A DNA stretch of 30,734 nt from a virus. Under the pieces are notes generated by a model. The model was not told the origin of the DNA, ran no database searches, and saw only the letters and a list, made by a program, of their open reading frames with translations. The DNA is taken from the IMG/VR virus record IMGVR_UViG_3300043431_000068, positions 1 through 30,734 of that record; one strand, written 5' to 3'. The translations under genes were made by a program, and so were the position numbers. Below are positions 1 through 29,000 of the stretch, piece by piece; the first letter of the stretch is position 1, and each line of letters begins with the position of its first letter.

Positions 1-3000
1 AGCTCTGGGCCCGGAACTTTTCCAGTAAAGAATTGATAAATACCTGTAATGCTCTTTGGAATATCTTCACCAAAAAGCTTCTTAAGCATGTTAGCCATTG
101 ACTGAGTTTCAACCAGAAGCCCGGCTTCCTCAAACTGCTTGCCAGTTGGGGCTTCAATTCCGTAGTTAGCGAACTCTTTACCAAGAGTTGTAAGGTCTGG
201 TAGCGAACCTCCATGTAGCGTTAGCGGGATCTGTAGCTCATAAATTTTGTTAAGCAAGAAAGCAACGTCTTGCAACTGGTCTACATAAGTTTGCTCGTCG
301 CCTTTTTGCTTGTCTTCACCGATGCCAAGCTGTTCCATGCGCTTAATAAGGTTTGGAAGAATCTGTGTATTGGATTCATTGTCTTCAACTAGACCAACAC
401 CCTTAGCGGCTCCACGAGTGAATCGAGTTCCTGACTCTGGATCTTTTGGCGGAACAACCATGCCAAACATGAGGCCTTCGGATTGTGGCACAACAGCTGG
501 AACGTTAGGGTTACCAGCAGCGCGACCTTCAGATTCGACACCAAAAGCTGCGGATGCGCCAACTGCGTAAACCATTGCGCGCTTACCAGGCTTTGCAGGC
601 TCTCCGTCCTTTGCTGGCGTCGGGTTTAACCCACCACTGTGCTCAATGTCAAGGGCGATAAGAAGATCATCTTGGCTTTCGGCAAGTTTTTTAAGCTTGT
701 CAGCAAGCTCCTTGTTTCTTTTAGCAACTTCTTCTTCGCCCCTGAGAACAAAACCTGTTTCCGCACTGCCTGGTTTTCCAGGCTTCTTGTCCTGAGCTGG
801 TGCTTCACGCATCTGCTTCTTAAGAGCTTCAGCCTGCTTTGTTAGACCAGCGTTTTCAAGTTCCTGAATCTTAGCAATAGCATTGACCTTAGCCTGGTCG
901 GAGTATCCTGCGTTAAACGATTCGGCAAGTGCACGACCTGCGTCGTTAAGGTCTTTCAGGCGTTTCTGCGCACCAACAATTACACCCTCAGCGGCGTCAT
1001 CAGCGGCGTCAATAAAGTATTGTGCTGGAGAGTTTCGACCGATCTGTTCGTCAAAGCCATCACCAAGAGCCTGGCCCATGTCAGCACCAGCTTGGCCAAT
1101 CTCACCTTCTTTAGCTGATAAGCCTTGAGTTAAGCCAGCAACAACATCCGAAGCAACTCCTGGGTCAAGCTGAAGAAGCTCATTAGGGTCGTATCCAGGG
1201 ATGAGTTCAACAGGTCGCATCAAGTCTTCTAGTTCAAACTTATACAAGTCCTCGCCCAGGTTAGGGTTAGCTGAAGGCTTTTCTCTTTCAGCGTTGAAAG
1301 CTCTAGGGTTTGGTCGATCACCCATCTGTTTCTTAGCCTGGTCAACAGACCATTTAAGAACCGGACCATTCTTTAAATCTTTAAAGCTTGGGGTTTGGCT
1401 GGTTAGGTCAATGTCATCAACATAGCCTGATAGAATTTCAGAAATCCAGTTATTAAACTTCTGGCGCACAGCCTTGATTTGGTCACCCATCGCAATTGGG
1501 GTCCCCTCGTCCCCAGCGAACTCTCCAGACTCCAACTGCTTGACAAGAGTTTCTTCAACTCTTTCATATTCGCTTTGGAAATATTCTGCAAAAGGCTTTG
1601 CGGCATCAAAGACTGCTGAATCAAAAACGTCTTCGCTAGCTCCACCAAACTTTGCGGTTGCCTCTGTGAGCACAGAAGATTCTCTCATCCACTGCTGGCG
1701 GTCGCGCTCGTTGAAACCCATTCTCGAAGGGTCTTGAGAAGCATCATACATGTTTCGGTAGCTTGCCATCTCGCCACGCGAGTAAGGCCCGCCGTTTGCG
1801 GCTGTAGTGGTTCCCTTTTCTAGGGCTGCGTCAACCTGTGGCAAAGCCTGTGTAATGTCACCAATCATTAGACGCTGAGTGTGCTTAGCAATGTATTGGA
1901 AGAAGGCGTCGCGGTTCTTTACAAATGCTTCACCATAGGTCATTCCAATTACGTTGGAGTCGCCTTCTTTTGCGCCTTCTGGGGCTGGCTTAAATGTTGC
2001 GGCATCAAATAGTCCGCTCTTGCCAATTAGATCCTTAAAGCCACCGCCGTAAATTTTGCGGAAATCGTCTTCAAGAGATTCCAAAATCTTTTGTAAAGGG
2101 GAGAAGAGTTTAACCCCAATCTCATTTCCGCCCATGTAACTGCCAGGTGTTGAACCAGTAGAGGTAGAAGAAGATTCTTTACCAGTTGTTGGGTCAATAA
2201 ATTTAACTGAAGCGCTTGGTGAATAGTTGTTTTGATCAAAAAGTTTTTCAAGGGTATTCTGGTTTGGGATGTTTGAGTTCCCCATACCAAGTTTAGATAG
2301 CTGTGCCCCAGAGCTTTGAAGGTTATCTGTGAGGATTCCCATGAAAATGCCGGCCTGTTCAGCGACACCAATAAGCTTTTGAAGTCCAGGCGCAAGGTTT
2401 GCAAAGTCTTGCATGAATGAATCCCATTGGGAGTTAACTAATCTTCCAACATTAGGATCTTCTTCGCCCGGCTTAACCACAGGGTTGCGAGCGCCGTAAG
2501 TGATCTTCTGAACCATTTCCCAAAGCTTTTTGGTCATGTCCTGGTTTGGTCCAATTTGAGGAATTCCACCATTTATGTCCTGCTGTGTGTCAGAGAACCA
2601 AAGACTCGATGAACCTTTCTTCTTGCGCTTATCTTCTAAGGCGCGCTTGTCCCAAGCGTCCTGCGCGGCATTGCGACGAGCAATTTCAGCGGCGAGGTCA
2701 ATCTTTGTTAGTTCACCGCTGTATTCATCTTCAGAGCTGTAGAAAGGTTTAGGGTTTTGCTGAACGATGCCTGGGGTTGGAACGCTTCCGCGCACATTGT
2801 CTTTGTTAACAATTTTAAGCGCAACAGTTGCGTCAGTAAAAGCGCGAATAAGATCATCGGCTGCGATTGTTAAGCCACCATAGTTCGGGTCGTCTTCTTC
2901 GCCAAGTTTATTGATTGGGAAAAGACCACCGATGTAGTCAAGCGGTGCAACACCGCGACTGTTCATTCCAGTTTCAGGGTCGTAAGTTGAACCAATCTTT

Positions 3001-4799
3001 GAACCCCTTAGCCCACCGACTTCGTTGCCGAGGCTAATCATCTCAAGGATGGCCATTACAAGATCGTTTTTCTCCTGAGCTTGCTTGCGTAAAGCTTCCG
3101 CTTCGGTTGTAATGTCTGAACCAATACCAAAGTTAGAGCGCTGGTTACCTAAGTCATCAGCCCTGTTCTTGTCGTCCGCAGAATATTGCGACCTTGCAAT
3201 TGATTCTGCTTCGTCATCGTCGCGATTACTCTCTAGAACTGTTAGAATATCGCCAAGCGTTCTAGCCTGATCAATTTCACTGTCTGTTTCTTCGTTATCG
3301 GAATCTTCTTCTTCTACTCCATTAGCTTTCATCGCTTGACTTACAATGTCGCCAATGTCTTCTTTACGCACACCGATGCCGGTAAAACTGATACCGCCAG
3401 AGGTTAGCGCTGCTTCAATTTGACTTCCTAATGCAGTTGAAAACTCTGGGGTAAAGTCAGTGCTTTCAACACCAGTTTTTCCAACAGACGACCTGGTAAT
3501 TGCACCTTCGACTGTAGGTGCAGCTTCTTCAGTTAATGCTTGCAGGCCTGCTTTGCTTTTATCTTTCCGACCAGCGCTAAGAGCTTCACCAGCTAGCTTT
3601 AGCACAGAAGATTCGCGTGAGGAAATTACTGCCGCGGCTTGCTCTGCTGTGATAACATCACGCTTAACAAGCGCTTCAATAATCAAATCATTTAATGCAC
3701 CGCTAGATGGAACGCCAGACTTTTTGATTTTAGTTAAGAATGACTCGGCAACAGCCTCAGCAACCTGAGTTGTTACAGCATCCGCAACTAGCTTGTTCTT
3801 TCCATCTTTGCCCTTTGTAGGGGTAAAGCCCTGGCCAAGCGCACTAAGCGGGTCATACTGGACTAGCCCCTTCTTCTTGCCCTTGTCGAGCTTATTAGGC
3901 TTGTAGCCACTTCCAATCTCGCGTAGAGGTAATCCGGCAGATTCTAACTGTAGCTCTGCATACTCAATATACTTGATTGTTTCATCTCGCCACTCCCTGA
4001 GGTCTTTGAGTTGCTCCGCCAGTTGCTTATACTCTAGTGTGGCAGCGCCAGAATAGTTTCTCCTCAACTTTGTTGAACGAGAAGTCATAGCAGCAATTTC
4101 AGCCTCTAAACGCTTCTCTTCCTCAATGAAAGGGCTCTGCTTTTGGCGCATAGCAACAACATGCTTTTTGCGAGTTTCATTAGTCTTTGGGCCGTCGCTA
4201 GCTTTCCACTCGGCCATGGATTCGTCTTTGACCTTTTTGATCCTGCCACGGGCGGTAGCAAGTTCTTTATAGGCCAACTGAAGCGAGCCGGTAATAGATT
4301 GTAGTTCGCCACTAATGTCAAGCTGAGCCTCTGAAGGCTTCATAGACTTTAGGCGTCTATCTACCTTTTGGATTTCGGCATTCAACCGATTGGCAAGCAC
4401 AACAGGCTCGCTAGTTAGTTTACGGAACTGTGCAAGCAACTGTTGCTGAGCACCCTCGTTAAGTCCGATACCCTTTTTAATGTCTTTCATGCGACTGCCA
4501 CGAGCCGACTTTGTTTGTGGGGTCATACTGTCCCACTCGCGGCTCATGAGCTTGCCTAGCTCTTTTTGTTCTTTCTTAAGAACTTTAGAGGTTTGCCTGA
4601 CAGTATTGATTTTACTTATCATTGTGTCAAGGGACTTTGCATCATCAACGAAGTGAATTGGCACAGCCATGCCACCCAGGCGCTTCTCTAACTTCTTCTG
4701 TTCATCTAAAGCTTCCTTGCTGAACCGCTTGAAGTCGAGAAGGGCAGGCCCAGTGTCAAGACCGAGTGATATGTTAAATCTTTCGTCCGCCAAAGCCAT
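1..4799 (-). CDS. Tape-measure protein (partial, runs off left edge) with a DnaQ-like exonuclease signature
   Basis: The frame is open without a stop from the ATG at 4799 to the left edge, giving 1599 residues with the C-terminus missing. Its size, its place directly after the frameshifted tail-assembly chaperones, a charged helical N-terminal third (about 1-350, rich in Lys/Glu/Gln) and a mid-protein repeat-like Gly/Ala segment with an NSPAQYF motif near residue 1270 all fit a tape-measure protein, which sets tail length and is threaded through the tail tube. I see no strong membrane helices. From about residue 1378 the protein resembles a DEDD-family 3'-5' exonuclease: LLIALDIEHSG gives D1384 and E1386 (Exo I), LTLHGGSLPDL gives D1535 (Exo II), and LLVETQSMANML resembles the segment before Exo III. 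Exo III would lie past the edge. The ATG follows a purine-rich TAGGTAGGA. The tape-measure call is firm from context; the exonuclease call is inference. Confidence 0.85.
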   Translation of the reverse strand, partial: MALADERFNISLGLDTGPALLDFKRFSKEALDEQKKLEKRLGGMAVPIHFVDDAKSLDTMISKINTVRQTSKVLKKEQKELGKLMSREWDSMTPQTKSARGSRMKDIKKGIGLNEGAQQQLLAQFRKLTSEPVVLANRLNAEIQKVDRRLKSMKPSEAQLDISGELQSITGSLQLAYKELATARGRIKKVKDESMAEWKASDGPKTNETRKKHVVAMRQKQSPFIEEEKRLEAEIAAMTSRSTKLRRNYSGAATLEYKQLAEQLKDLREWRDETIKYIEYAELQLESAGLPLREIGSGYKPNKLDKGKKKGLVQYDPLSALGQGFTPTKGKDGKNKLVADAVTTQVAEAVAESFLTKIKKSGVPSSGALNDLIIEALVKRDVITAEQAAAVISSRESSVLKLAGEALSAGRKDKSKAGLQALTEEAAPTVEGAITRSSVGKTGVESTDFTPEFSTALGSQIEAALTSGGISFTGIGVRKEDIGDIVSQAMKANGVEEEDSDNEETDSEIDQARTLGDILTVLESNRDDDEAESIARSQYSADDKNRADDLGNQRSNFGIGSDITTEAEALRKQAQEKNDLVMAILEMISLGNEVGGLRGSKIGSTYDPETGMNSRGVAPLDYIGGLFPINKLGEEDDPNYGGLTIAADDLIRAFTDATVALKIVNKDNVRGSVPTPGIVQQNPKPFYSSEDEYSGELTKIDLAAEIARRNAAQDAWDKRALEDKRKKKGSSSLWFSDTQQDINGGIPQIGPNQDMTKKLWEMVQKITYGARNPVVKPGEEDPNVGRLVNSQWDSFMQDFANLAPGLQKLIGVAEQAGIFMGILTDNLQSSGAQLSKLGMGNSNIPNQNTLEKLFDQNNYSPSASVKFIDPTTGKESSSTSTGSTPGSYMGGNEIGVKLFSPLQKILESLEDDFRKIYGGGFKDLIGKSGLFDAATFKPAPEGAKEGDSNVIGMTYGEAFVKNRDAFFQYIAKHTQRLMIGDITQALPQVDAALEKGTTTAANGGPYSRGEMASYRNMYDASQDPSRMGFNERDRQQWMRESSVLTEATAKFGGASEDVFDSAVFDAAKPFAEYFQSEYERVEETLVKQLESGEFAGDEGTPIAMGDQIKAVRQKFNNWISEILSGYVDDIDLTSQTPSFKDLKNGPVLKWSVDQAKKQMGDRPNPRAFNAEREKPSANPNLGEDLYKFELEDLMRPVELIPGYDPNELLQLDPGVASDVVAGLTQGLSAKEGEIGQAGADMGQALGDGFDEQIGRNSPAQYFIDAADDAAEGVIVGAQKRLKDLNDAGRALAESFNAGYSDQAKVNAIAKIQELENAGLTKQAEALKKQMREAPAQDKKPGKPGSAETGFVLRGEEEVAKRNKELADKLKKLAESQDDLLIALDIEHSGGLNPTPAKDGEPAKPGKRAMVYAVGASAAFGVESEGRAAGNPNVPAVVPQSEGLMFGMVVPPKDPESGTRFTRGAAKGVGLVEDNESNTQILPNLIKRMEQLGIGEDKQKGDEQTYVDQLQDVAFLLNKIYELQIPLTLHGGSLPDLTTLGKEFANYGIEAPTGKQFEEAGLLVETQSMANMLKKLFGEDIPKSITGIYQFFTGKVPGPE

Positions 4800-9118: not shown

Positions 9119-11089
9119 TTATGTGTTTTCTGAATTTTGTGGCCTCATTTGCACAGCCAGCCAATTTACAACTACTGGAGTATTGTTTGGAATAGCCACG
9201 TTATCTATTGTTTTGAGAGTTATGGTCATTGTTGTAGTTGTAACGTTAGAAACTGTGGCTAAAATATTTTTCACATCTGTAGTTAGGGTGATTATTGGTT
9301 GGTCAGCAAATGGAATTTCTGTAGTGTCTGCAACAAAACTTATGTTGTTGGTTACCTTCTCAGCAGAACCGGATCCATATATTAGCTGCCTACCTGCCAC
9401 CATATTAAATGGTGTTCCGCCAATTCCAGGAGCGGCTACTGTTCCGTTTTGTATTTCTTCCTGGAGCGTGTCTTGAACTGCGGTTCCAACGTTAGATGAA
9501 GTAACCAAGGTAACCCATTCAAAATGGTAATCAACATCGCTTACTTTTGCTAAAACCTGATCTCTGCTTCCGCCAATTGGAAGTCCGATTCCATCGTTTC
9601 CATCAACACCTCTGACGACAAATCTTATAAAATCTGCTTCGTTATCAACAAAAACTTGATTATAATTTTTTCCAGTATTATAATCTGTGAATTCTCCGTT
9701 TGGGTCATAATCTTGATACCAGTTTAACTGCTCACTAACTGCGATTTCATAAGCACTTAATCCAATGTCACCTTGCGGACCAGTCGGCCCACGAGGCCCC
9801 TCAATGCCACGTTCGCCTTGAGGACCTTTTACATAACCAGCATTTGTGTCTGTAGAAAAAGAATCAGTAGCTGGGTCGTATATTCTGTATACTAAATAGC
9901 CGTCTTCTAACCTAAAAGATGCTGCATACTTGCCTTGAACACCTTGAATGCCTTGCTCGCCTTGGGGTCCTTGGTCACCAGTGTCACCCTTTTCTCCTGC
10001 TGGAATTCCAAAGTTAAGAACATTTATTTCAGAACCATAATCCCCTGTTCGCGTAATGTTCACATACGGATTTTCATAAGATTCAAGGACTGTAGCCGAA
10101 CCGGCCTGAACTGAGCCAATCTCGCCTTGAGGGCCTCTTACGTAACCAACCTCTTCCCACCCAGTTCCGTCTGTTTTATAGAGACTTAATATTCCATCTT
10201 CTACATTTGCACTGGTATAACCAGGCCCACGAACATCCCCAGAAACAGATATAGATGTGTCATCACTCATGTTGAGGGTCATTGAGCCATATGCGCTAAC
10301 GCTCGCGCTTTCAATGTATGGCGCATCTTGGCCGTCATAACCAACAACTCGGCCCAGATTTTCGCTAGTGCCATTATCGTAAAATAATGTAAGGTTATTG
10401 TTATAAATTTCAGCATCTTGGATTGAAACTCCAGTATCACCCTTTTGCCCCTTAAGTGAGGCGATCCACTCAGATTCAGAACCCACAAAACCATTTTGCA
10501 AAGCTACAACATAAGCTGAATCACCAGCACCAGAACCCGGAGCACCCTGTGGACCACGAGGACCTTCTGCGCCTTGAGGACCCGGAGGGCCGCCAGGAGT
10601 TCCTGGGGGCCCTTCTGGTCCTTGAGGGCCAACGTCGCCCCTGTCGCCCTTTACATACAGCACACCATTGGAATCTTGCAAAGGCATAGCGCTAGTTAAA
10701 TCAATGGTTTCTCCAGCCTCAACACTGAATGAGTAAGAAGGGATTGGCCTTGTCGGCACACCGAGTTCGTCGGTTAGGCGGAAGTCTACCGTCCATGTCC
10801 AGTCGACGGGGTTGTTTTCTGCAATGTTAGTCGCTAAAAGTTTTACCCCAACAGAATCGTCGATTCCTAAAATATTTCCGCCTGAATCAAGCTGGCATTC
10901 AACGGTCGCTGGCAGGAATGTTAAGTCTTCTTCTGCGTTTACGATGAAAGCTGGGGAGGGGGTGAAGAGGACTGTTCCGCCCGCAGCAACCCAGTCAAGA
11001 TCAGAGTTTTCATCAGAGCCGTCGGTGTAGGCAAGTAAGAACCTGCCAGTGACGGTCCCGTAAGCGTTTTGAATTGGCGGGTTTACCAT
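9119..11089 (-). CDS. Collagen-like fibre protein with beta-sandwich N-domain (656 aa)
   Basis: Residues 1-140 form a beta-rich domain (GTVTGRFLLAYTDG, then LLATNIAENNPVDWTWTVDF) nearly the same in layout as the whole neighbouring 134-aa protein, so the two are paralogues. Gly-X-Y runs follow (for example [14 protein letters not shown]), broken by the spacer SAYVVALQNGFVGSESEWIA, a motif that recurs between collagen blocks in this fibre family. More collagen-like runs ([29 protein letters not shown]) alternate with beta segments. The final 110 residues, rich in Thr/Val/Ile, look like a distal knob. It is probably a trimeric fibre for binding a receptor or surface. It lies between capsid and connector genes, so it could decorate the head rather than the tail tip. 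Confidence 0.75.
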   Translation of the reverse strand: MVNPPIQNAYGTVTGRFLLAYTDGSDENSDLDWVAAGGTVLFTPSPAFIVNAEEDLTFLPATVECQLDSGGNILGIDDSVGVKLLATNIAENNPVDWTWTVDFRLTDELGVPTRPIPSYSFSVEAGETIDLTSAMPLQDSNGVLYVKGDRGDVGPQGPEGPPGTPGGPPGPQGAEGPRGPQGAPGSGAGDSAYVVALQNGFVGSESEWIASLKGQKGDTGVSIQDAEIYNNNLTLFYDNGTSENLGRVVGYDGQDAPYIESASVSAYGSMTLNMSDDTSISVSGDVRGPGYTSANVEDGILSLYKTDGTGWEEVGYVRGPQGEIGSVQAGSATVLESYENPYVNITRTGDYGSEINVLNFGIPAGEKGDTGDQGPQGEQGIQGVQGKYAASFRLEDGYLVYRIYDPATDSFSTDTNAGYVKGPQGERGIEGPRGPTGPQGDIGLSAYEIAVSEQLNWYQDYDPNGEFTDYNTGKNYNQVFVDNEADFIRFVVRGVDGNDGIGLPIGGSRDQVLAKVSDVDYHFEWVTLVTSSNVGTAVQDTLQEEIQNGTVAAPGIGGTPFNMVAGRQLIYGSGSAEKVTNNISFVADTTEIPFADQPIITLTTDVKNILATVSNVTTTTMTITLKTIDNVAIPNNTPVVVNWLAVQMRPQNSENT

Positions 11090-11510: not shown

Positions 11511-13844
11511 TTACTTAGCTTCTAAAGCTTCTAGTCTGGCAGTCAAGTCCGCAATTTGTGTTGCCTGGTGTCGGGCAACAGCCTGTAATGCAGTAACATA
11601 CATGCTGTAATGAATACCCTCAATTGAACCGTTTTTACCGTAGTCAACTAGCTGAGTTAAACCTGCATCATGCAAGTCTTCAGCAATCATACCTAGCTCG
11701 ATTGGGGCTTGGTCGCCAAGTTCTTCAACTGCGCTAATGTATCTAAAGAACTTTGGTTCGATCTCTAGCACGGCGTCGACGTTTATTTCGGCCCCTGTAA
11801 TGTCTTGTTTTCTTTCACGGCTTGACGAGGCGTAACCGAAAACACCAGCAGAGCTCATCCACATGGCGCGACGAGTGGTAGTAATTTCGTTTGCGTAGGT
11901 GTCGTTGGAGTCTAGTAGCCCACCGAACTGAACTGTTCCACCACCAGAACCATTTAGAACGAGGGTCGCACCAACACCGTTAGTTAGGACCTCAATCTCG
12001 TTATTATCAATTCTTAAGTTGGTGCTAGAAGTTTCACCGATCTGGAAGTTGTGGTCTGTAGATGTTGCTGAAAGGTCTACAGCTGGGTTTAGTCTAATCC
12101 TAGAAGCGTTTACAGAACCGCCAAGAGTTAAATCGCCACCAGCATTAAATGTTACACGAGTATTTGTGCCTTCAATAAAGCGCAAGTCTGGTGTGCTAGT
12201 TGAACCAAAAGCGTCAATACCCCAAGCCATTTCATTGTCCAGTGCACGAGCAAAGTCAAGTTGTCCACCTTCAGAGGCGGAGTTGGTGCGGTGAAGCTTT
12301 GCATCAACGTTAGGCATGATGCCGGCTTCTTCAAGGGTCTTGTTTTCCCACAGGTTAGAAGCAGTGCGTTGGATTACTTCACCAGTTGCTGGCGAGCTAA
12401 TCAGAACATCATGCAGCTCATTCAACTCGAAACCGTTTTGAGGCTTAACAAAGATCTCACCATTGTTAGAGTTTGACCTTGTAACAACACCGATGAATAC
12501 GAGATGTGCTGGTGCGACTGGCTTGTTTGCCAAACCATAAATTAGGTTGCCATTGGTCCCAAGCCACACAGGGTCGCCAGCTGTGGCTGTAGATGTGTCA
12601 AGTCCGGAAAGTAAACCTTCAGCGATTAACTTCACTTTAGCGTTAGTTGAACCACCTAGTTCAAGCAATCCCATAGTCTTTGAAGATGTGGCCTCCGAAG
12701 CGTTAGAAGCCTTAGAGACAATCATGTTTGTGCCGTCAGCAGAGCTTACATAAACAGCTTGACCTTTAGAAATTGATTCGCCCAGTTTAACTTCGTGCTT
12801 AACTTGCGAAGTCCAGTTGGCGTAGTTGTCAATCCAGGTAGTGCTGTAGTCTGTTCCGTCAAGCTTTGCAAGGATTTGTCCAGCATCTCCGCCGGTTGGA
12901 ATACCAACGCCAGGGTCGCCTTGAGGCCCAGTTGCACCATCGGCACCGTCGGCACCTGCGGATCCTGTAGGACCAGTTTCGCCTTGAATGCCTTGCTCCC
13001 CTTGAATACCCTGTGGACCCGTAGGCCCAGTGGGGCCAGTGGCTCCAGTTTCACCTTGCGGGCCTGTGGGACCTGTAGCGCCGTCTGCGCCATCAGTTCC
13101 GTCAATTCCATCCGCACCAGCTGGTCCAGGCTCGCCTTGAGGCCCCTGAGGGCCTGTTTCACCAGTTAAACCGTTCTCGCCCTGGACACCTCGCTCACCC
13201 TCCGGCCCCTGTGGGCCAACCAAGCTAGCAAGCCACTCAGTCTCAGTGCCTGTGAACCCTTCAACCTGCGCAACCTGATAAGCACTAAGTCCAGTTAGTC
13301 CATCTGATCCAGCCGGTCCTTGAGGACCAGTCGCACCTGTCGCACCAGTAGCCCCAGTCGCACCTGTCTCGCCCTGGATTCCTTGGGGACCAGTAGGCCC
13401 CACTTCACCCTGTGGACCAGTAGCACCAGTTGCACCTGTAGCTCCGTCAGCTCCGGGTTGTCCATCTGCACCATCAGCTCCCGCTGGGCCCTGAGCCCCA
13501 TTCTCACCTTGAATACCTTGAATACCTTGCTCACCCTGAATACCCTGCTCTCCTTGAGGCCCTTGCGGACCAGTTTCACCTTGCGGACCCTGCGCGCCAT
13601 CAGCGCCATCAGCCCCATCAATACCAGGCTCACCCTGCAAACCCTGTGGCCCAGTCGGACCGGCAGGACCTTCCGGCCCCTGTGGCCCAGTCGGACCAGG
13701 TGTGCCAGTAGAAGAAGTAGAGTCTCCCCCACCACCGCCACCGCCACCAATAGGACGCTTATCAAGCTTCTTAATTTCGCGCTCGACAGTATCGGCCCAG
13801 TCTTGCGACCCGCCTGGAAGATTATTGTCTGGAAAGATTATCAT
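11511..13844 (-). CDS. Collagen-like fibre with C-terminal peptidase S74 (intramolecular chaperone) domain (777 aa)
   Basis: Order of parts: an N-terminal helix ([14 protein letters not shown]) and an eight-Gly run near residue 38; a long Gly-X-Y block to about 185 with GPTG, GATG and GIQG units; a spacer [20 protein letters not shown]; a second collagen block to about 320; [20 protein letters not shown]; and a beta domain ([14 protein letters not shown], then VWLGTNGNL) resembling a DUF2190-type fold. The C-terminus from about residue 674 has [23 protein letters not shown] and IHYSMY, then a coiled coil ([11 protein letters not shown]). This matches peptidase S74, which folds a trimeric fibre and cleaves itself off before the serine; S674/S675 and K679 are the expected dyad. 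GGAGG directly touches the ATG, an odd spacing. Confidence 0.85.
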
Positions 13845-20871: not shown

Positions 20872-21042
20872 TTACGCCTTTCTGCTTAGTGCTAGTTGTC
20901 CGATTGGGCTTTCGATTTCTGCCCAGTGTCCGCTTGCGTTACATTTGATACATGCTTGGTTCTCTGGTAGTTCGTTGTAGGTGGTTGAACACCATACGCA
21001 AATGATAGTTTCGATACACTTGGTTCCGTTTAGTTCACACAT
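20872..21042 (-). CDS. Small zinc-ribbon protein (56 aa)
   Basis: The peptide starts MCELNGTKCIETIICVWCST and has two CxxC pairs, C15-x2-C18 and C31-x2-C34, separated by 12 residues, the layout of a treble-clef or ribbon zinc finger. The C-terminus is ordinary (ESPIGQLALSRKA). AGAAAG lies before the ATG. The stop is one base before the membrane-protein start, so the two are coupled. Such small zinc ribbons are frequent in phages and may bind nucleic acid or protein; no role can be assigned. Confidence 0.72.
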   Translation of the reverse strand: MCELNGTKCIETIICVWCSTTYNELPENQACIKCNASGHWAEIESPIGQLALSRKA

Positions 21043-21078
21043 GTTTTTATCTTTCTACTATTTTTTACAAGAGGTAAT

Positions 21079-21099
21079 CCCCCCTTGCGTCAAGGGGGG
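21079..21099 (-). terminator. 9-bp G/C-rich hairpin after the DUF669-like gene
   Basis: CCCCCCTTG pairs perfectly with CAAGGGGGG around a 3-base loop, 17 bases past the stop of the upstream minus-strand gene. No U-run follows, so it may be a U-less terminator or a transcript end stabiliser. Confidence 0.6.
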
Positions 21100-21115
21100 C
21101 TTACACTCATACGGG

Positions 21116-21616
21116 TTAGAACGCTTGCTTTGCCTTAGCTGCCATTACTTCGGCCTGAGCAATGTCGAAGTGAGACGCCACTTCTTCAACAAACTTTTCT
21201 ACTTCTGCCTTTTGGGTAGATAGTGCGAACGAGCCAATGTCGTTGGTGGTGTTGCCATTGCGTGGTGTCCATACGACAATGTTAGCGGCAACGAAAGCGC
21301 CAATCAATTCGGCAGGGTTTGCTGGAACATACATTCCGCCTAGGTGGTGTTCAGCGGCTTCTACAAGGCTCTTGGTCTTGTATGCTGAAGGGGCGCTAGC
21401 GTCAAGAACGCATAGGGTGGTTACATAACGACCGCTCTGCTTTGGACCGTTGATACGGAACTGAACCCACAAACGCTGTTCACCAGTAGACTTTACATCT
21501 ACGAAACGAGCGTCTGTGATAACGCCAGCGTAACGACCAACAGGGATAAGCGTGTATTCTCCGCCACCCGATACTGCGTTGAAGTCGAACGAAATTGCCT
21601 TGTTTTGCTTTGACAT
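21116..21616 (-). CDS. DUF669-like protein, probable ssDNA-associated replication/recombination protein (166 aa)
   Basis: The N-terminal two thirds follow the DUF669 pattern: a FDFNAVSGGGEYTLIPVGRY opening, then VITDARFVDVKSTGEQRLWV and QFRINGPKQSGRYVTTLCVL, then a segment for a helix with EAAEHHLGG and a strand near AANIVVWTPRNG. Family members are found in phage replication/recombination clusters, and an ssDNA-binding-like fold is often suggested. The C-terminus is an acidic to Ala/Lys helix (QAEVMAAKAKQAF). AAGG precedes the ATG. It is a lone transcription unit between hairpins. Confidence 0.6.
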   Translation of the reverse strand: MSKQNKAISFDFNAVSGGGEYTLIPVGRYAGVITDARFVDVKSTGEQRLWVQFRINGPKQSGRYVTTLCVLDASAPSAYKTKSLVEAAEHHLGGMYVPANPAELIGAFVAANIVVWTPRNGNTTNDIGSFALSTQKAEVEKFVEEVASHFDIAQAEVMAAKAKQAF

Positions 21617-21690
21617 GATGTTTTACCTTATCTATTTTATGTTTTACGCCTACACGGTGTGTGTCTGCGTTACCAACCACCAAAAGAATC

Positions 21691-21716
21691 GAGGGGGCCG
21701 GCTTGTCGGTCCCCTC
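21691..21716 (+). terminator. Plus-strand-favouring hairpin
   Basis: GAGGGGGCCG (21691-21700) pairs with CGGTCCCCTC (21707-21716). One position is G-U in plus-strand RNA but A-C in minus-strand RNA, so the plus-strand RNA is the better fold. TAATCTTTC follows. It may block antisense transcription into the DUF669-like gene region, or be part of a plus-strand transcript not otherwise seen. Confidence 0.4.
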
Positions 21717-21769
21717 TAATCTTTCAACTAAAGGGGACCACGAACTAAAGTGGTGCGTGTAAGGGGGGT

Positions 21770-21792
21770 GCAGGGGGGAACGCCCTGCTTTT
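21770..21792 (+). terminator. Plus-strand terminator-like hairpin abutting the DUF4326-like gene
   Basis: GCAGGG pairs with CCCTGC around a 7-base loop and is followed by TTTTAT on the plus strand. The minus strand has no U-run here. It lies at the 3' end of the minus-strand gene ending at 21791. Confidence 0.45.
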
Positions 21793-22057
21793 ATCCCCTC
21801 ATCTTTTCCACATACTCAACTAACACATCCCCATGGCAAGCCGCAGGCTTGCAAAAGCATCCTAATCTCATGCCTTCCAATTCACATAAAAGCACACTCA
21901 ACAATTCCACATTTATGCTCAACATCTTTTCATATTTTTCAATTACCTCTTCCCTACTACCATCCTTTCCTATCACAAAAGGATTACCCCACTTACTACC
22001 TCTACCAATATAAACATCATATTCATCTTTATATTTATTCACAACAACGCTTTTCAT
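21791..22057 (-). CDS. DUF4326-like protein (88 aa)
   Basis: The signature GRGSKWGNPFVIG (residues 18-30) and the C-terminal LGCFCKPAACHGDVLVEYV are the two hallmarks of DUF4326, a small family found in many phages and bacteria. The Cys/His pattern suggests metal binding or catalysis, but the function is not established. GAAAGG lies seven bases before the ATG. The gene is visibly richer in A/T than the flanking genes, which may mean separate acquisition. A 7-bp hairpin (22080-22102) lies in its leader. Confidence 0.85.
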   Translation of the reverse strand: MKSVVVNKYKDEYDVYIGRGSKWGNPFVIGKDGSREEVIEKYEKMLSINVELLSVLLCELEGMRLGCFCKPAACHGDVLVEYVEKMRG

Positions 22058-22245
22058 TACTACCTTTCAGCAAGGACGAGATGCCCCAGCGTAGCGGGCA
22101 TCACGACCTGCCAACACCCACAAATAACCACAATATCCACACCACAGGTTTTATTGGTGCCACCAGGAAAACAACTAACTATCTATCTATACGCAGCATG
22201 AACCACACAAAAATGTGCGCGGATTTTCCCTGCCCAAACAACAAT
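22058..22245. other. Leader/intergenic region of the DUF4326-like gene
   Basis: No convincing gene is seen. The stretch contains a hairpin GATGCCC/GGGCATC at 22080-22102, 22 bases before the minus-strand start, and a short TATAGATAGATAG tract on the minus strand that could be part of a promoter, without a clear -35. Confidence 0.4.
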
Positions 22246-22292
22246 AAAAAAAGGGCAGACCCACACGCCACAATATGCGTGTAGATCTGCCC
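22246..22292 (-). terminator. Rho-independent terminator after the coiled-coil gene
   Basis: In the minus-strand RNA GGGCAGA (22292-22286) pairs with UCUGCCC (22259-22253), an inner stem ACACGC/GCGTGT extends it, and seven U residues follow. It ends the transcript 10 bases past the stop at 22302. Confidence 0.93.
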
Positions 22293-22301
22293 AAACTTTT
22301 A

Positions 22302-22544
22302 CTACTTCTTGTTGAACTCTTCCTCAGCGTCCAACTCAGCCTCATACAGCTCACGCCATACATTGTCCAACTCATACAAACGCTGGTCCAACGCTGCAAT
22401 TACCTTCTTCTGCAAACGCTTCGGCCAACCAATGTCCTGCCCAAAGTCTGCAATAACGCGTTCATAAGCGTCAACAAGCTCCTGCAACGACTCCAACTGC
22501 AACTCAGCGTTTGATTTCTCTTTGATTTTCTTTGAAACGCCCAT
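22302..22544 (-). CDS. Small coiled-coil protein (80 aa)
   Basis: The ATG at 22544 (MGVSKKIKEKSNAELQLESL) is chosen because AAGGAGA lies just upstream. The open frame extends further up but has no supported start there. The product is nearly all helix with heptad-like leucines (LQELVDAYERVIADF; LQKKVIAALDQRLYELDNVW) and an acidic C-terminus (YEAELDAEEEFNKK). No family recognised. It is flanked by a strong terminator downstream and a small hairpin (22571-22591) upstream, so it may be transcribed on its own. Confidence 0.7.
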   Translation of the reverse strand: MGVSKKIKEKSNAELQLESLQELVDAYERVIADFGQDIGWPKRLQKKVIAALDQRLYELDNVWRELYEAELDAEEEFNKK

Positions 22545-22570
22545 AAGGCTATCTCTCCTTGTTATAAAAT

Positions 22571-22591
22571 CATGGCAAAGGCCATGTTTTT
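22571..22591. terminator. Small hairpin with U-run, bidirectional
   Basis: CATGGC pairs with GCCATG around a 4-base loop. Five T follow on the plus strand, and ATTTTAT on the minus strand. In the minus direction it falls between the zinc-finger gene (ending at 22664) and the coiled-coil gene, as a possible end of the amidotransferase transcript. Confidence 0.5.
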
Positions 22592-22663
22592 CGGATTTCA
22601 CACGGCACGATGCGCGCATGAAGGGTGTTTTGAGCCTTTTTACATCTTGCTCGGGATGTGTTG

Positions 22664-22765
22664 CTAGTTTTTTGCTAGGTGTGCTTGGAATTGCCAGTAG
22701 AGCATCATTTCTCCGCACACATCGCATGTGATGACTTCGTTGTTTGATTTGTCATCGCCAGTCAT
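22664..22765 (-). CDS. Very small zinc-finger-like protein (33 aa)
   Basis: The frame starts at an ATG at 22765 that overlaps the end of the amidotransferase gene by 14 bases. The peptide MTGDDKSNNEVITCDVCGEM continues to a C-terminal FQAHLAKN. A CxxC knuckle with a following Trp/Phe segment and a His fits a small zinc finger. There is only a weak G-rich ribosome site, so translation would be coupled to the gene before it. No role can be assigned; it could be a regulator of this operon. Confidence 0.5.
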   Translation of the reverse strand: MTGDDKSNNEVITCDVCGEMMLYWQFQAHLAKN

Positions 22766-23810
22766 CTACACGACCCCATAGTTCGGTTTCTGAGGGTTCT
22801 TTTCGGCCTTGGCTGTGTTCTTCTAGCCATGCACCGTATTTGAAGTCCTCGTATTCGTCCATGAGTTGTTCGATGTCGCCAATCATGTCGCCGTTGCCGT
22901 CGTAGAATACTCCGCCTACTTCGCTGAAGCATGCTCTGAAGTCTGCGAATGTGTTGATTCCCCAGTTTGCCATGTCTTCGTGGTTTGGTGTGTATTCTGT
23001 GATGCCTCCGCCTATGTCTAGGCCGGTGCCGTAGGATTCCCATGAACTGTTTGGGTTGCCTCCGGCTGTCATGTGACGGTATTTGTCGTAGTAGCTTGGT
23101 GTCCAACGTTCTTCGTATGCTGGGTCTAGTTCGACTACATTTTCAAAGTTGGTTACTACACCTTCGCTTACGGTGAACATTTTGCGTTCTCCGACTTCGT
23201 ATACCCATTCGTAATCAATTTTGGCACGGTCTAATGCTGTGCATAGGATGTGTTCGGTTGATGCGAAGAAGAATGAGCCGTCTCTGCTTTGTGCGACCCA
23301 TACTGGTGAGTGGTTGATTCGTGCTACTGTGATTTGGTTTCGTAGGTCACTGTCTAACCATGCTACTGCAGCGTCGCCGTCGAGCATACTGAACTTGTCT
23401 ACACCGTATTTTTGCAGGATTGCTGGGATTACTGATGTGTCTACTTCTGGTAGCTGGTATGGTAGTTCGCCTCGCACTTTGGTGTGGTTGTAGATTACAC
23501 CGTTGTGCACGAGTGCGATGTTACCGTTTGGTGACATTACTGGGTGGTTGTTGGCGTTGACTGATGCACTGCCGTGTGTGGCTAGGCGAGTGTGCAGGAT
23601 AGCATTTTTTGCGTTGCGTGGCATGTGCCACATGCTTAGTTTGGATCCTGCAATGTCTCGTTTGTAGACACCTGATGATTTTGCATTTTCCCATGCATAA
23701 CCTGAGGCCATTGAGCCTCTGGCTTCCATTTCGGTTAGTAACGCATGCGCTACTTTGCGTGGGTTGATTTTGCTTTGTTTGGATAGGCTAAAGCCACCGA
23801 TTCCGCACAT
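22752..23810 (-). CDS. Class II glutamine amidotransferase (Ntn-type), 352 aa
   Basis: It should release ammonia from glutamine for an amide- or amine-forming partner. The ATG at 23810, nine bases after AAGGAG, gives MCGIGGF, so processing would expose Cys2 as N-terminal nucleophile. Glutamine-site motifs are all present: LHTRLATHG (R75, H79), NANNHP (87-90), VHNGVIYNH (N103, G104) and EVDTSVI (D124), plus LDGDAAVAWLDSD near 143. After about residue 225 there is no sugar-isomerase or asparagine-synthetase domain; a 120-residue acidic tail of unknown fold replaces it. It therefore needs a separate synthase partner, and the amidoligase 450 bases upstream in the same operon is the obvious candidate. 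Substrate unknown. Confidence 0.9.
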   Translation of the reverse strand: MCGIGGFSLSKQSKINPRKVAHALLTEMEARGSMASGYAWENAKSSGVYKRDIAGSKLSMWHMPRNAKNAILHTRLATHGSASVNANNHPVMSPNGNIALVHNGVIYNHTKVRGELPYQLPEVDTSVIPAILQKYGVDKFSMLDGDAAVAWLDSDLRNQITVARINHSPVWVAQSRDGSFFFASTEHILCTALDRAKIDYEWVYEVGERKMFTVSEGVVTNFENVVELDPAYEERWTPSYYDKYRHMTAGGNPNSSWESYGTGLDIGGGITEYTPNHEDMANWGINTFADFRACFSEVGGVFYDGNGDMIGDIEQLMDEYEDFKYGAWLEEHSQGRKEPSETELWGRVDDWR

Positions 23811-23834
23811 ATTGTGTTTCTCCTTAGTTTGGTT

Positions 23835-23865
23835 GTGGGGGCCATTTCTGACCCCCACATTTTTT
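23835..23865 (+). terminator. Hairpin in the amidotransferase leader; plus-strand terminator-like
   Basis: GTGGGGG pairs with CCCCCAC around a 10-base loop. TTTTTT follows on the plus strand. In the minus-strand transcript it sits just before the amidotransferase ribosome site with no U-run, so it may protect or adjust that mRNA, while blocking antisense transcription on the other strand. Confidence 0.5.
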
Positions 23866-23954
23866 ATTCAACAAAATAGTGGACCTAATGCGATTATTAG
23901 GAACACTGTGAAACTGACGCACATTGCGATAGTTTCTTCTACTTTATTTCGTTT

Positions 23955-24254
23955 CTATTTCTTCTCCTTTGGAAGGTCTGGATTGTATCTCATGTATACT
24001 GTCCAGAGTTTTTTATCTGGGTGGGTCACAGACAGGTTGTTTCCGCCTGTCTGTGCTACCTCGATTTGAGCGAATCGTTCTGAGATTCGATACGCCCAGG
24101 CGTGTGAGTTTACTTTCACTGGATATTCTGCCCATGCGTTTGGGTTTGCATAGAGTTCTTCCATGAATTGTGTAACCTCGTAACGGACTTTGCGACCTGA
24201 TTTGATTTTTAGTATCTCTTCAGTGTCTACCCATTTCATTTTGACTTTAGCCAT
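23955..24254 (-). CDS. Protein of unknown function in the amidoligase operon (99 aa)
   Basis: I do not recognise this protein. It starts MAKVKMKWVDTEEILKIKSG from an ATG 4 bases after the amidoligase stop; a TTG 12 bases earlier is also possible. It has a basic N-terminus, a helical middle (YEVTQFMEELYANPNAWAEY) and a C-terminal beta segment (KKLWTVYMRYNPDLPKEKK). AWAYRISERFAQIEV could be a DNA- or protein-binding helix. Close spacing with the amidoligase suggests joint action. An accessory or substrate role is possible but not supported by a motif. Confidence 0.68.
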   Translation of the reverse strand: MAKVKMKWVDTEEILKIKSGRKVRYEVTQFMEELYANPNAWAEYPVKVNSHAWAYRISERFAQIEVAQTGGNNLSVTHPDKKLWTVYMRYNPDLPKEKK

Positions 24255-24258
24255 TTGA

Positions 24259-25761
24259 CTAAGCAACCTGGAAGGTGCGTGTTACTTGACGGTAACGCGA
24301 ACCGTATGGGTCTTCAACTTTTGCTGTTTCTTCGCTGAAGGTGAATCCGTATTTTGCGTAAATTTCGACGAAATCGGTGATGTTCTTTACTGCAAAGAAG
24401 TCATTGATTTGTGCGCCGTTCTTTACGGTTTGGATGAGTCCACGAGCCATCCACGCCATGAAGGTGATTCGGTCGAAGCTGAAGTTACAGTCCATTTGAC
24501 GGAACTCTAAAGTGCCTCGCTCGTTTGCTGCGTGGTGTGTGTTGATGGCTGTGAATTTGCCAACGTGATACAGAGTGTCAGTGCGTAGTGTTGCACTGAT
24601 TGATTCTGCTGGAATGTGGTTTGCGTAGGTTCTGCAACGACCATCGTCGTCGTTTACATTACGGCCACAGATTACATCCCAGATACGCTGTGTGATTGCG
24701 TAACCTGCTAGAACGATACCAATCTGTTTTGCAGTCAAGTCTTTTGCAAAGACGTGAATGTGTGTTCCAGCGGTTTCGTTCTTTTCTGTGTCCTTGATTT
24801 GGTCAAGGAGCATACGAAGTCCTGGGTGCAGTGCACGGGTGATGCCACCGGTGGTGCGGAATTCGTAGGATACAATGTTGTTGCAGTCACTGTCGTTGCA
24901 GTGTTCTGGGTCGTCATTGTAGTCGTTGCAGTTGCCACAGTCGCATGAGTGGTAGGTGCATGAACGACAGTCGCATTCGCAACCGTCTGTGTCGGTTTCG
25001 TATGATTCTACTGAACCGTCTGATCCTGCTTCTACACCCATTGGTGTGCGAACACCTGAGCCTGGGTTTGGTGCTTCAATTTCCCATCCCCATGTTCTGG
25101 ATACAATGTGGTTACCAATTTGTGTTTGGTATTTTTGTATCTCGTCTTCGATTGCCATCCATTGTGCTGGCTCTAGTTCTTGAGCTTGACGATCTGCAAT
25201 CTTTTTGCTTAGGCCTTCAGTGGATTGGTTTTGACCGTTGATTCGCTGGTTACGCTCGTAGTGTGCGAAGTAGTCTGCGAATGTGCGGTTGTAACTTGAC
25301 AGTCCGTATGCTAGGAATTCTACACCGAATGTCATGTCTTCCATTACAATTTCTAGCATTTTCTGCAACTGTGCTGAGTCTGCAAGATTGATACGGATGT
25401 AGTTGCCATCACTGTATGTTTCAATGCCTGCTTCGTTGAGTAGGTTGCTTAGTTCGTAACGGAACTGCATCCATAGGATTGCGTCGTTGCGATACTTTTT
25501 TAGCATTTCGTATGTTGTTTCTAGCAGGTAAATGTCCCCGTTGTCTGGGTCGCTTACTAAGCCTTTGAATGTGATACGACTTACACCACCGTAGTATGCG
25601 ATACCTACACCGTTGATGTTGTTTGAGTCAATGAATGAGTTTAGTTCATTGATTGATTCAACGCTTATCTGTGATGCGGTTTCGGTGAATGTTCCGTGTG
25701 TTGCTGCTACTTCGTGTAGCTTTTTTGCGACTTCGATGAAGTCTCGGTTGAGATTTCTCAT
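24259..25761 (-). CDS. Amidoligase (COOH-NH2 ligase, glutamine-synthetase-like fold) with Cys-rich insert (500 aa)
   Basis: The C-terminal half matches the amidoligase superfamily (Amidoligase_2 type), ATP-dependent enzymes joining an amine to a carboxylate: TWGWEIEAP (E227, E229, metal ligands), GSDGSVESYETD (D248), VSYEFRTTGG (E300), GTHIHVFAKD (H334, H336), GKFTAIN (K402) and GTLEFRQMD (E419, R421) in the usual order. Between D248 and E300 is an insert (261-293) with nine cysteines in CxC and CxxC spacings, probably a zinc cluster. Residues 1-220 are a helical, acidic region without a recognised domain. It is the longest gene of the minus-strand operon and is followed by a small unknown and the class II amidotransferase. 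Phage amidoligases are thought to modify cell-surface peptides or small molecules; the substrate here is unknown. Confidence 0.82.
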   Translation of the reverse strand: MRNLNRDFIEVAKKLHEVAATHGTFTETASQISVESINELNSFIDSNNINGVGIAYYGGVSRITFKGLVSDPDNGDIYLLETTYEMLKKYRNDAILWMQFRYELSNLLNEAGIETYSDGNYIRINLADSAQLQKMLEIVMEDMTFGVEFLAYGLSSYNRTFADYFAHYERNQRINGQNQSTEGLSKKIADRQAQELEPAQWMAIEDEIQKYQTQIGNHIVSRTWGWEIEAPNPGSGVRTPMGVEAGSDGSVESYETDTDGCECDCRSCTYHSCDCGNCNDYNDDPEHCNDSDCNNIVSYEFRTTGGITRALHPGLRMLLDQIKDTEKNETAGTHIHVFAKDLTAKQIGIVLAGYAITQRIWDVICGRNVNDDDGRCRTYANHIPAESISATLRTDTLYHVGKFTAINTHHAANERGTLEFRQMDCNFSFDRITFMAWMARGLIQTVKNGAQINDFFAVKNITDFVEIYAKYGFTFSEETAKVEDPYGSRYRQVTRTFQVA

Positions 25762-25779
25762 TTTTCCTTTTTTCCTTGG

Positions 25780-26097
25780 TTATACCTGAAAAGTTAGTTC
25801 TTCAGGTAGGTTTGAGTGGAACCAGCCCATGTATATGATTCTGGCGTAATCGATTAGTCCTTCTTGTTTGAATTCTTCCCAGTCTTGCCCGTGTAGTGGG
25901 ATTAGGTTTACTAACTGGTAGAAGGATTCTTCTCGTTTTGTGATACCGTTTGTTACCCATATGTCACATTGGTTCAACGATTTGTTGAATGTGAACAGAT
26001 AGTTTGGTATTACATCTACTTCTACGATTTCACTGTCGCCTTCGTCGATTCCGCGAAGTTTGTCAGTGATTTCTTCGTAACTGTGTAGTTTGCGCAT
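25780..26097 (-). CDS. Protein of unknown function in the amidoligase operon (105 aa)
   Basis: No family recognised. The start MRKLHSYEEITDKLRGIDEG is helical and charged; the middle has beta-like stretches (IVEVDVIPNYLFTFN, then CDIWVTNG), then LVNLIPLHGQDWEEFKQEG and a C-terminal YARIIYMGWFHSNLPEELTF. AAAGG lies about ten bases before the ATG. It lies 18 bases before the amidoligase start and 6 bases after the preceding gene, so all are probably one transcript. The aromatic-rich C-terminus may mark a binding surface. Confidence 0.68.
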   Translation of the reverse strand: MRKLHSYEEITDKLRGIDEGDSEIVEVDVIPNYLFTFNKSLNQCDIWVTNGITKREESFYQLVNLIPLHGQDWEEFKQEGLIDYARIIYMGWFHSNLPEELTFQV

Positions 26098-26103
26098 TGT
26101 CTA

Positions 26104-26481
26104 TTACCTTTTTAGTGATAGTGGTGAATAGTCTGGGAATACGAAACTTCTAGTTTGGTGGTAGAAGTGACCTGCATCAAGTAGTGCTTGGTTGAATCCG
26201 CTTTCTAGTTCTAGGTCTAGGTATTCGGTTTCAACTTCTTGATACTGGTTGTAGCGTGTTGGGTATTCCATGATTAGTTTGCCGTTTTCGTCGGTTTTGT
26301 TTGCTAACCATGAGTATCCGATGAACTTGTGGCATGGTGTCCATAGTTCGTCTACATAGTCTCTGATGTATCCGAAGTCTGCGTCGTTTTCTTTGAGAAC
26401 TAGCTCGTATCTTGCTTCGGATGTTACAGGGTCTATTTTGTAAATTACTTTGAATAATTTACGCGAATCTCTTAGATTCAT
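26104..26481 (-). CDS. First gene of the amidoligase operon, unknown function (125 aa)
   Basis: No family recognised. It opens MNLRDSRKLFKVIYKIDPVT, followed by a charged and aromatic-rich body with DELWTPCHKFIGYSWLANKT, EYPTRYNQYQEVETEYLDLE and HFYHQTRSFVFPDYSP. Trp and Tyr are unusually frequent for a protein of this size. AGGAG lies seven bases before the ATG. It is the most upstream gene of the minus-strand operon, directly after the long structured leader at 26482-26640, so it would be the first product affected by leader control. Confidence 0.7.
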   Translation of the reverse strand: MNLRDSRKLFKVIYKIDPVTSEARYELVLKENDADFGYIRDYVDELWTPCHKFIGYSWLANKTDENGKLIMEYPTRYNQYQEVETEYLDLELESGFNQALLDAGHFYHQTRSFVFPDYSPLSLKR

Positions 26482-26513
26482 TTTTTCTCCTATGTTTAGT
26501 TGTTTGTTTTTAT

Positions 26514-26557
26514 CGAGCCGTTGGGAGGCGAGCTCGTAGAGTCGCCTACCAAAGGCG
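26514..26557 (-). promoter_or_regulatory. Leader RNA of the amidoligase operon with mutually exclusive hairpins
   Basis: In the minus-strand RNA CGCCT/AGGCG (26557-26543) and CGAGC/GCTCG (26536-26514) can form together. Alternatively AGGCGA pairs with TCGCCT (26547-26526) with an inner CTC/GAG, which uses arms of both other stems. This two-state layout is the sort used by switches and attenuators. The first start codon is 33 bases downstream. No known riboswitch class recognised. Confidence 0.45.
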
Positions 26558-26605
26558 TAACTACAGTTTTTGTTTTTTCTGTTGTTTCTGTTGTTTCTTT
26601 ATTAG

Positions 26606-26640
26606 CCAAGGCGGACCCCGGCCTTTAGGGGTCGACTTGG
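26606..26640 (-). promoter_or_regulatory. Two-part stem-loop in the amidoligase leader
   Basis: CCAAG/CTTGG forms the outer stem and GACCCC/GGGGTC the inner stem around an 8-base loop. No U-run follows on either strand, so it is not a simple terminator. A regulatory RNA element or protein site is possible. Confidence 0.4.
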
Positions 26641-26650
26641 GCCTGGCTGT

Positions 26651-26753
26651 ATTTGCTGAATACTGTATGTTTAATGCTGAATGCTGAATTCTAAATGCTG
26701 ATTGCTAATGTCACATTCTAAATTTTGTGATCTGTAGTGATGCTAAATGCTGC
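26651..26753. repeat. Degenerate 7-bp tandem repeats, consensus GAATGCT
   Basis: From 26651 the sequence reads in heptads: ATTTGCT, GAATACT, GTATGTT, TAATGCT, GAATGCT, GAATTCT, AAATGCT, GATTGCT. Two more units (TGATGCT, AAATGCT) follow at 26738-26751. The array is gene-free and A/T-rich, like iterons or repressor sites. Confidence 0.75.
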
Positions 26754-26785
26754 AGTATTATTTGTTGCTTTACACAGGTGCTTTT

Positions 26786-26845
26786 TTTGAAAAATATGCG
26801 GGGTTTTAGACGCAGGGCGGTGGTTTGAAAATTCTGCGCGGTTTT
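26786..26845. repeat. Two imperfect 22-bp direct repeats
   Basis: Copies at 26786-26807 and 26824-26845 agree at 19 of 22 bases, starting TTTGAAAA and ending GGTTTT, 38 bases apart. The second copy is itself an inverted repeat (GAAAA, 10 bases, TTTTC), as expected of an operator for a dimeric protein. Confidence 0.7.
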
Positions 26846-26877
26846 CATATTTAATTCCTAAAGTTTTGGTTTGGGTC

Positions 26878-26937
26878 TCTATCTGTATTATTTATATATA
26901 TATTATTATATATAATAATTAGATAGACTGGGAGATT
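26878..26937. repeat. 60-bp A/T-rich inverted repeat
   Basis: TCTATCT (26878-26884) and AGATAGA (26931-26937) are perfect outer arms; ATTATT and AATAAT and alternating TA continue inward with one or two unpaired bases. It could extrude as a cruciform or act as an unwinding element. Confidence 0.65.
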
Positions 26938-26958
26938 TTCATTTTGTCCCTTTTCTCG

Positions 26959-27134
26959 ATTGAATATGGTAAATTATACTCTTTTTCTCATTGTTTTTAT
27001 CATATTCAATTCCAATATCTAAACGCTACATCCGTAAACACTATTTATTTTCACTAATGAAATAGTATTTTTTTGAAGGAATAAAATAGTGTTTCTGGAA
27101 ATAGTGTGGGGTAGTGGTGGTTGAATATGGTAAA
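26959..27134. repeat. Three copies of TTGAATATGRTAAA
   Basis: Copies: 26959-26973 direct, 26996-27010 inverted, and 27121-27134 direct. The first two face each other across 22 bases. The third lies 41 bases upstream of the first early promoter. They are likely binding sites for a regulator of the divergent promoters. Confidence 0.65.
27036..27109. repeat. Four copies of AAATAGTRT
   Basis: An inverted copy AAACACTATTT at 27036-27046 is followed by direct copies at 27060-27070 (AAATAGTATTT), 27084-27094 (AAATAGTGTTT) and 27099-27109 (AAATAGTGTGG). They lie upstream of the first early promoter and interleave with the TTGAATATG elements. Confidence 0.6.
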
Positions 27135-27175
27135 ACTTATCATAAATAATTCTTTGACTATTTTGCGTTTTTTGC

Positions 27176-27203
27176 TTGACAAGCCTCTAAAAAGGACTAA
27201 ACT
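27176..27203 (+). promoter_or_regulatory. Early promoter P1: TTGACA-16-TAAACT
   Basis: A perfect -35 box (27176-27181) is followed by a 16-base spacer and TAAACT (27198-27203). It lies 34 bases before the first plus-strand start. The same pair of boxes occurs at two other places in this operon. Confidence 0.8.
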
Positions 27204-27236
27204 GGACTTATAACCAATCGATCAAAGGAGGCCCAA

Positions 27237-27446: not shown

Positions 27447-27476
27447 AGATATATGACAACAACACAAGGAGAGATA

Positions 27477-27671: not shown

Positions 27672-27675
27672 GACC

Positions 27676-28997: not shown

Positions 28998-29000
28998 TAC

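Follow-up and report, generated by a model that had tools for sequence, protein, structure and literature searches.

A predicted DEDDh exonuclease domain within the long tape-measure proteins of a phage group

The window, meaning the whole stretch of DNA analysed here, is a virus record of 30,734 bases. Its left edge cuts the reading frame of a tape-measure protein (TMP) after 1599 amino acids, and a predicted exonuclease domain lies across that edge. The features relevant to this domain in the window are the following.

3..4799, minus strand: tape-measure protein, first 1599 of 3624 residues; reading frame open at the left edge of the window
3..719, minus strand: visible part of the DEDDh exonuclease domain (residues 1361-1599), predicted from family alignments and from AlphaFold2 and Foldseek on a homologue
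642..650, minus strand: Exo I, codons of D1384-I-E1386 (LIALDIE); D and E invariant in 8/8 members
195..215, minus strand: Exo II, H1529-x5-D1535 (HGGSLPD); H and D invariant in 8/8 members
105..110, minus strand: E1564-T1565 (LLVETQ), counterpart of the DT...LA segment that precedes Exo III; invariant in 8/8 members
1..3, minus strand: window edge; Exo III (H1618-x4-D1623, AHDPLID) lies outside the window and is encoded in L002
5946..7022, minus strand: probable major tail protein, used as a conserved syntenic anchor to retrieve 39 related loci

The frame is completed in an overlapping contig, L002 (IMGVR_UViG_3300044806_000037; 56,974 bases), where an IMG/VR scan found the last 239 residues of the window's TMP encoded at 100% identity. 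Window positions 1-21029 correspond to L002 35946-56974 (100% identical) and positions 20903-30734 to L002 1-9832 (99.97% identical), and the window is a fragment of the phage represented by L002. Positions 20903-21029 match both ends of L002, which is therefore read as a circular map of ~56.85 kb opened at another point. Two features were placed on this contig.

L002:3921-14795: complete tape-measure protein of 3624 amino acids, an open reading frame in the contig of the window's phage
L002:8001-8849: full span of the predicted DEDDh domain, to about residue 1645, from the contig of the window's phage

The complete protein has the features of a siphophage TMP: it is long, is encoded in a tail cassette after the probable major tail protein, and contains the PhageMin_Tail core (PF10145, residues 2052-2237, E 1.9e-12), which falls beyond the window. 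It also matches PHROG 17594 at residues 1958-2385 (E 2.9e-130). The exonuclease domain is internal to the protein rather than at its end, occupying residues ~1361-1645 of 3624 within an N-terminal extension of 1.9 thousand residues that precedes the ordinary TMP core. The remainder of this extension (residues ~1-1340 and 1650-1940) matched no Pfam family. A conserved GFDEQIGRNSPAQYFIDAADDAAEGVIVG stretch stands directly before the exonuclease domain in the TMP of L002, and it presumably resembles stretches in other TMPs.

Elsewhere in the window, two collagen-repeat proteins are encoded between the genes for the capsid and the tail, at 9119-11089 and 11511-13844 (minus strand), and the second of these also carries an endosialidase-type chaperone (Peptidase_S74) at its C-terminus. 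Close to each other at 22752-23858 and 24259-25761 (minus strand) are the genes of a class II glutamine amidotransferase and of an Amidoligase_2 protein that has a Cys-rich insert; the two may form a peptide- or cell-wall-modifying pair.

The first-pass annotation of the window had reported a DnaQ-like exonuclease signature inside the TMP. The motifs, their order, their spacing and the predicted fold are all of the DEDDh type, and PF10145 and PHROG 17594 identify the frame as a TMP. The motif residues are exactly where they had been placed: D1384 and E1386 of Exo I sit in ALDIE, within LLIALDIEHSGG, and the Exo II-like D1535 sits in LTLHGGSLPDLTTLGKEFANYGI, with LLVETQSMANML coming after. The segment proposed to stand in for (L/V)DT...LA contains the pair E1564-T1565. 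A third motif, H-x4-D, had been predicted within about 30 codons of the left edge. Across that edge, the residues GPE continue into LIPKKGVAPAYTGNTAEAHDPLIDAQASG in L002, which gives H1618-x4-D1623; these two residues lie 19-24 residues beyond the edge, in TAEAHDPLIDAQASG, so that a test set in advance was passed.

Relatives, all from uncultured phages, were gathered by scans with the domain and by a scan with the probable major tail protein, which gave 39 loci. The domain is present in eight distinct TMPs: that of the window's phage (L002) and those of L003, L007, L039, L015, L052, L054 and L012. Identity among these domains ranges from 38 to 77%, and the 264-residue alignment of the eight members has 37 invariant columns. 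Among these columns are the six signature positions (D, E, H, D, H, D) and the E-T pair at the usual DT place, kept in every member. For instance, Exo I, II and III read ALDIETTG, IHSSSMSD and AHDPTID in L015, ALDIETTG, IHSQPLSD and AHDPTID in L052, and AFDDEKT, MHNIGYSD and AHDPTID in L012. The domain is under purifying selection (pairwise dN/dS ~0.13 for L003-L007 and ~0.18 for L052-L054). An assembly chimera is unlikely, since the fusion occurs in eight lineages, three of which were each recovered as two separate records. A search with the AHDPTID nucleotide pattern found no additional lineages.

Single-sequence and profile searches of Pfam, PHROGs and PDB sequences gave no significant exonuclease match for either the TMP or the domain. 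PF00929 did not match the domain, and it was the profile-profile scores alone that exceeded shuffles; a match to a curated family such as PF00929 helps detection and does not define the DEDDh superfamily. Against a 14-member profile of DnaQ, RNase T and ExoX, the profile-profile score was 25.5, compared with 21.6 for the best of 200 column shuffles, and Exo II and Exo III were in register. A MAFFT alignment of the domain with E. coli DnaQ, RNase T and ExoX was dropped in favour of this comparison because it misplaced Exo II and Exo III. The six signature positions were taken from the known motifs of the family and not fitted, and the chance that all six fall in invariant columns is ~5e-6. Given this invariance, and DnaQ profile-profile scores above every shuffle, the motif set is more than chance.

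The structure prediction that the first-pass annotation had called for was made on the L052 homologue, whose domain is 47% identical to that of the window. From the eight-sequence alignment, AlphaFold2 returned a confident DnaQ-type fold (pLDDT 81.5, pTM 0.83). The model places D11 and E13 on the first strand (7-14), has the Exo II D153 opening helix 152-164 after a later strand and puts the Exo III residues H239 and D244 at the final helix (241-261); as modelled, the motif arrangement is that of the DnaQ (RNase H-like) fold. A two-sequence AlphaFold2 model, built from the window's domain and one homologue, was left unused because its pLDDT was 40, and Foldseek on it was meaningless.

When the L052 model was compared with the PDB by Foldseek, the top 12 matches were TREX1 (PDB 9kjg, 8hcf, 5ywv), with a best E of 5.7e-6, a probability of 1.00, a TM-score of 0.49-0.58 for most and nearly the whole domain covered. 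These were followed by Pan2 (1.5e-4), human TREX1, E. coli DnaQ epsilon (2gui, E 6.8e-4, TM 0.61 by target length), ERI2 and 3'hExo, and a viral library returned DnaQ, DEDDh and related proteins. The phage domain has the DxE, H-x5-D and H-x4-D pattern of TREX1 at only ~15% identity, and it differs in being embedded in a tail protein and in carrying an extra segment between beta-3 and Exo II. With DnaQ epsilon and the phage DnaQ-like exonucleases (PF00929, PHROG 192) it shares the fold and, by profile-profile comparison, motifs in register. Unlike them it has no significant PF00929 sequence match, is not a replication protein and is fused to a TMP. The DnaQ likeness reported earlier was thus right as to superfamily, but the domain is nearer to TREX1 than to DnaQ, because its Exo II step from His to Asp exceeds that of DnaQ by one residue and because TREX1 fills the top 12 Foldseek matches. 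The longer spacing is, we take it, also that of TREX1.

The simplest objection to these results is that a long protein resembles the motifs by accident and contains no exonuclease domain. The lack of significant Pfam, PHROG and PDB-sequence matches would fit such an accident. The third motif, however, had been predicted in advance and then turned up, the pattern is conserved in eight lineages, the fold is confident and the structural matches are to TREX1 and DnaQ, so that a chance resemblance is hardly credible. The fold and active-site pattern are very probably those of a DEDDh 3'-5' exonuclease of the TREX1/DnaQ type.

A second, very divergent DEDDh-like version occupies the same place in five more TMPs. 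Four of these (2.4-2.6 thousand residues) were missed by the profile and recognised by eye, and L093 is the fifth.

L022:14519-15367: second-version domain, DTEF / ADF / PxH-x4-D pattern; Exo II Asp seemingly absent
L023:13496-14350: second-version domain, DTEF / ADF / PxH-x4-D pattern
L035:14155-15015: second-version domain, DTEF / ADF / PxH-x4-D pattern
L036:14003-14893: second-version domain, DTEF / ADF / PxH-x4-D pattern
L093:8588-15301: tape-measure protein frame with the second-version domain

Exo I reads ALDTEF, AFDTEF, GLDSEF or GFDTEF in four of these proteins and is followed by an E on the second strand. Exo II is (G)SN..xxADF-like, with its Asp present in 4/5, and Exo III takes the form P-(A/P)-H-x4-D, with H-x4-D kept in 5/5. 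Aligned to the first version by hhalign, the second scored 34.6 (E 4.7e-4; best of 150 shuffles 25.9), and against the DnaQ profile it scored 29.8 compared with 19.9 for the best shuffle, the match lying at Exo I. These sequence comparisons link the second version to the first as a related, putative DEDDh-like domain.

It has to be considered whether structure or nucleic-acid binding, and not catalysis, is what preserves the fold and its residues, the domain being a pseudo-enzyme or a length spacer. Such a reading could draw on L022, which has E or N at the expected Exo II Asp position, and on the large length changes that TMPs tolerate. Yet the invariance of the six signature positions in all first-version members, at identities down to 38%, is hard to explain without catalysis, and we regard a non-catalytic domain as very unlikely.

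The distribution of the two versions follows TMP length. Among complete, distinct TMPs adjoining the conserved major tail protein (L003 was left out because the contig end cuts its TMP), all 12 of at least 2.2 thousand residues carry one version: the first in those of 3.3-3.7 thousand residues (n=7), the second in those of 2.2-2.6 thousand (n=5). Neither version occurs in the 18 complete TMPs of 1.24-1.82 thousand residues, which have just 44-257 residues ahead of the core. In the seven complete first-version TMPs, the domain lies within residues 971-1642 and the core starts at 1376-1963. The extra length of the long TMPs in this group therefore comes from an N-terminal extension, and the domain is always part of it.

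This distribution also bears on where the enzyme would work. It might act on host or competing nucleic acid inside the producing cell, up to and during tail assembly or once freed by proteolysis, with the fusion to the TMP incidental. Late genes are strongly expressed, which counts for this alternative. TMPs are also often fragmented on gels (PMC11661146). Against it, the fusion is kept in every long TMP and in two very divergent versions, which is hard to explain if the fusion were irrelevant, and version-1 profiles found no free-standing copy of the domain among the open reading frames of the related loci. Action in the producing cell therefore seems quite unlikely.

The TMPs of eight named phages share a homologous core with the window's TMP at 31-42% identity. 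They are those of the Curtobacterium phages Yappy and Commonplace, the Stenotrophomonas phage Jojan60, the Arthrobacter phage Molivia, the Microbacterium phages Hubbs, Erenyeager and WaterT, and the Pseudanabaena phage Pan2. These proteins (~1.1-1.6 thousand residues) have no room for the domain, as the core match starts no more than 250 residues into the protein. Neither version had a relative in 50,697 phage records, or in one genome per species of 84,980 prokaryote species (two scans); these searches detect only fairly close relatives. Enterobacter and Salmonella phages, suggested by weak tblastn matches, were set aside as relatives; the one match examined was a short hypothetical protein beside an RNA polymerase. 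The genome of the window's phage also encodes a WhiB-family protein (PF02467, E 3.9e-18) joined to a C-terminal WhiA-type HTH (L097:700-1224). With this protein, and with the nearest named TMP cores coming mostly from actinobacteriophages, the sequences point to a likely actinobacterial host.

TMPs with a fused enzyme are already known; what appears to be new is that the enzyme is an exonuclease. A search of the open-access literature for an exonuclease, DnaQ, DEDDh or nuclease domain in a TMP returned only separate genes or other subjects. The nearest precedent is gp96, the TMP of phage P23-45, which has an active N-terminal RNA polymerase that was shown experimentally to be present in virions within the full-length protein (PMC10770324). 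In both cases a giant TMP has a nucleic-acid enzyme towards its N-terminus, before the tape region, and all seven complete first-version TMPs have this order. The two differ in that gp96 is an RNA polymerase in a 5002-residue protein of a Thermus phage, whereas the exonuclease is predicted from sequence and a model. A metallopeptidase has been called characteristic of many TMPs (PMC10770324); peptidase and transglycosylase TMPs likewise have an enzyme domain inside the protein, but those enzymes act on the cell wall, whereas the predicted target of the exonuclease is nucleic acid.

Sequence and prediction supply the domain, an active-site pattern that is complete and conserved, the place of the domain in the protein, and its occurrence in every long TMP but in none of the short ones. 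From these we somewhat favour a role at entry, in which the TMP carries a TREX1/DnaQ-type DEDDh exonuclease that is packed in the tail and acts in the newly infected cell. By analogy with other TMPs, it would be packed in about three copies. In phage 80-alpha, three TMP N-termini lie in the neck beside the tail completion protein holding the DNA end, and the C-termini are found at the other end, the tail tip (PMC11661146). TMPs are believed to enter the envelope, where they form a DNA channel (PMC10770324), and the lambda TMP was labelled at the inner membrane during injection by proximity labelling (PMC13190303). The exonuclease, in the head-proximal part of the TMP, would by the same analogy leave the virion just ahead of or with the DNA. 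The DEDD residues would hold two metal ions, with nucleotides then removed from 3' ends. Passage of a folded domain of ~30 kDa inside a narrow tail tube is not trivial and counts against delivery by the tail.

The main rival to this role is that the exonuclease serves the phage's own genome, by trimming or checking the 3' end at the neck or by preparing ends for circularisation. It arises because the TMP N-terminus adjoins the leading DNA end: the N-terminus in 80-alpha sits directly against the tail completion protein holding the DNA end (PMC11661146), and the domain belongs to the N-terminal, head-proximal portion of the protein. But 18 related TMPs manage without the domain while sharing the tail cassette, and an exonuclease beside the phage's own DNA end would need tight control. 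Service to the phage genome is accordingly judged unlikely. For entry with the tail, the most probable target would be nucleic acid at the entry site, either the host's or defence-related, attacked ahead of all phage gene expression, and the purpose would be counter-defence or take-over. Such a target is favoured because relatives dispense with the domain, as expected of an accessory function, and because its predicted catalysis is conserved.

TMPs are usually viewed as length rulers that also form the entry pore; some bear cell-wall enzymes, and that of one described phage an RNA polymerase. An exonuclease in the TMP would bring a nucleic-acid enzyme into the cell at time zero, the point at which injection-stage host defences operate. 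Among such defences, one nuclease system has been described as TMP-associated (PMC13190303). A bolder and more doubtful proposal is that the TMP is a syringe-loaded exonuclease of actinobacterial phages, with about three TREX-like copies destroying host or defence nucleic acid ahead of the genome. If true, virion-borne nuclease counter-defence would reside in one protein with the DNA-delivery channel. A TMP-borne exonuclease with defined catalytic residues poses a testable question: what must a tail digest while it delivers DNA?
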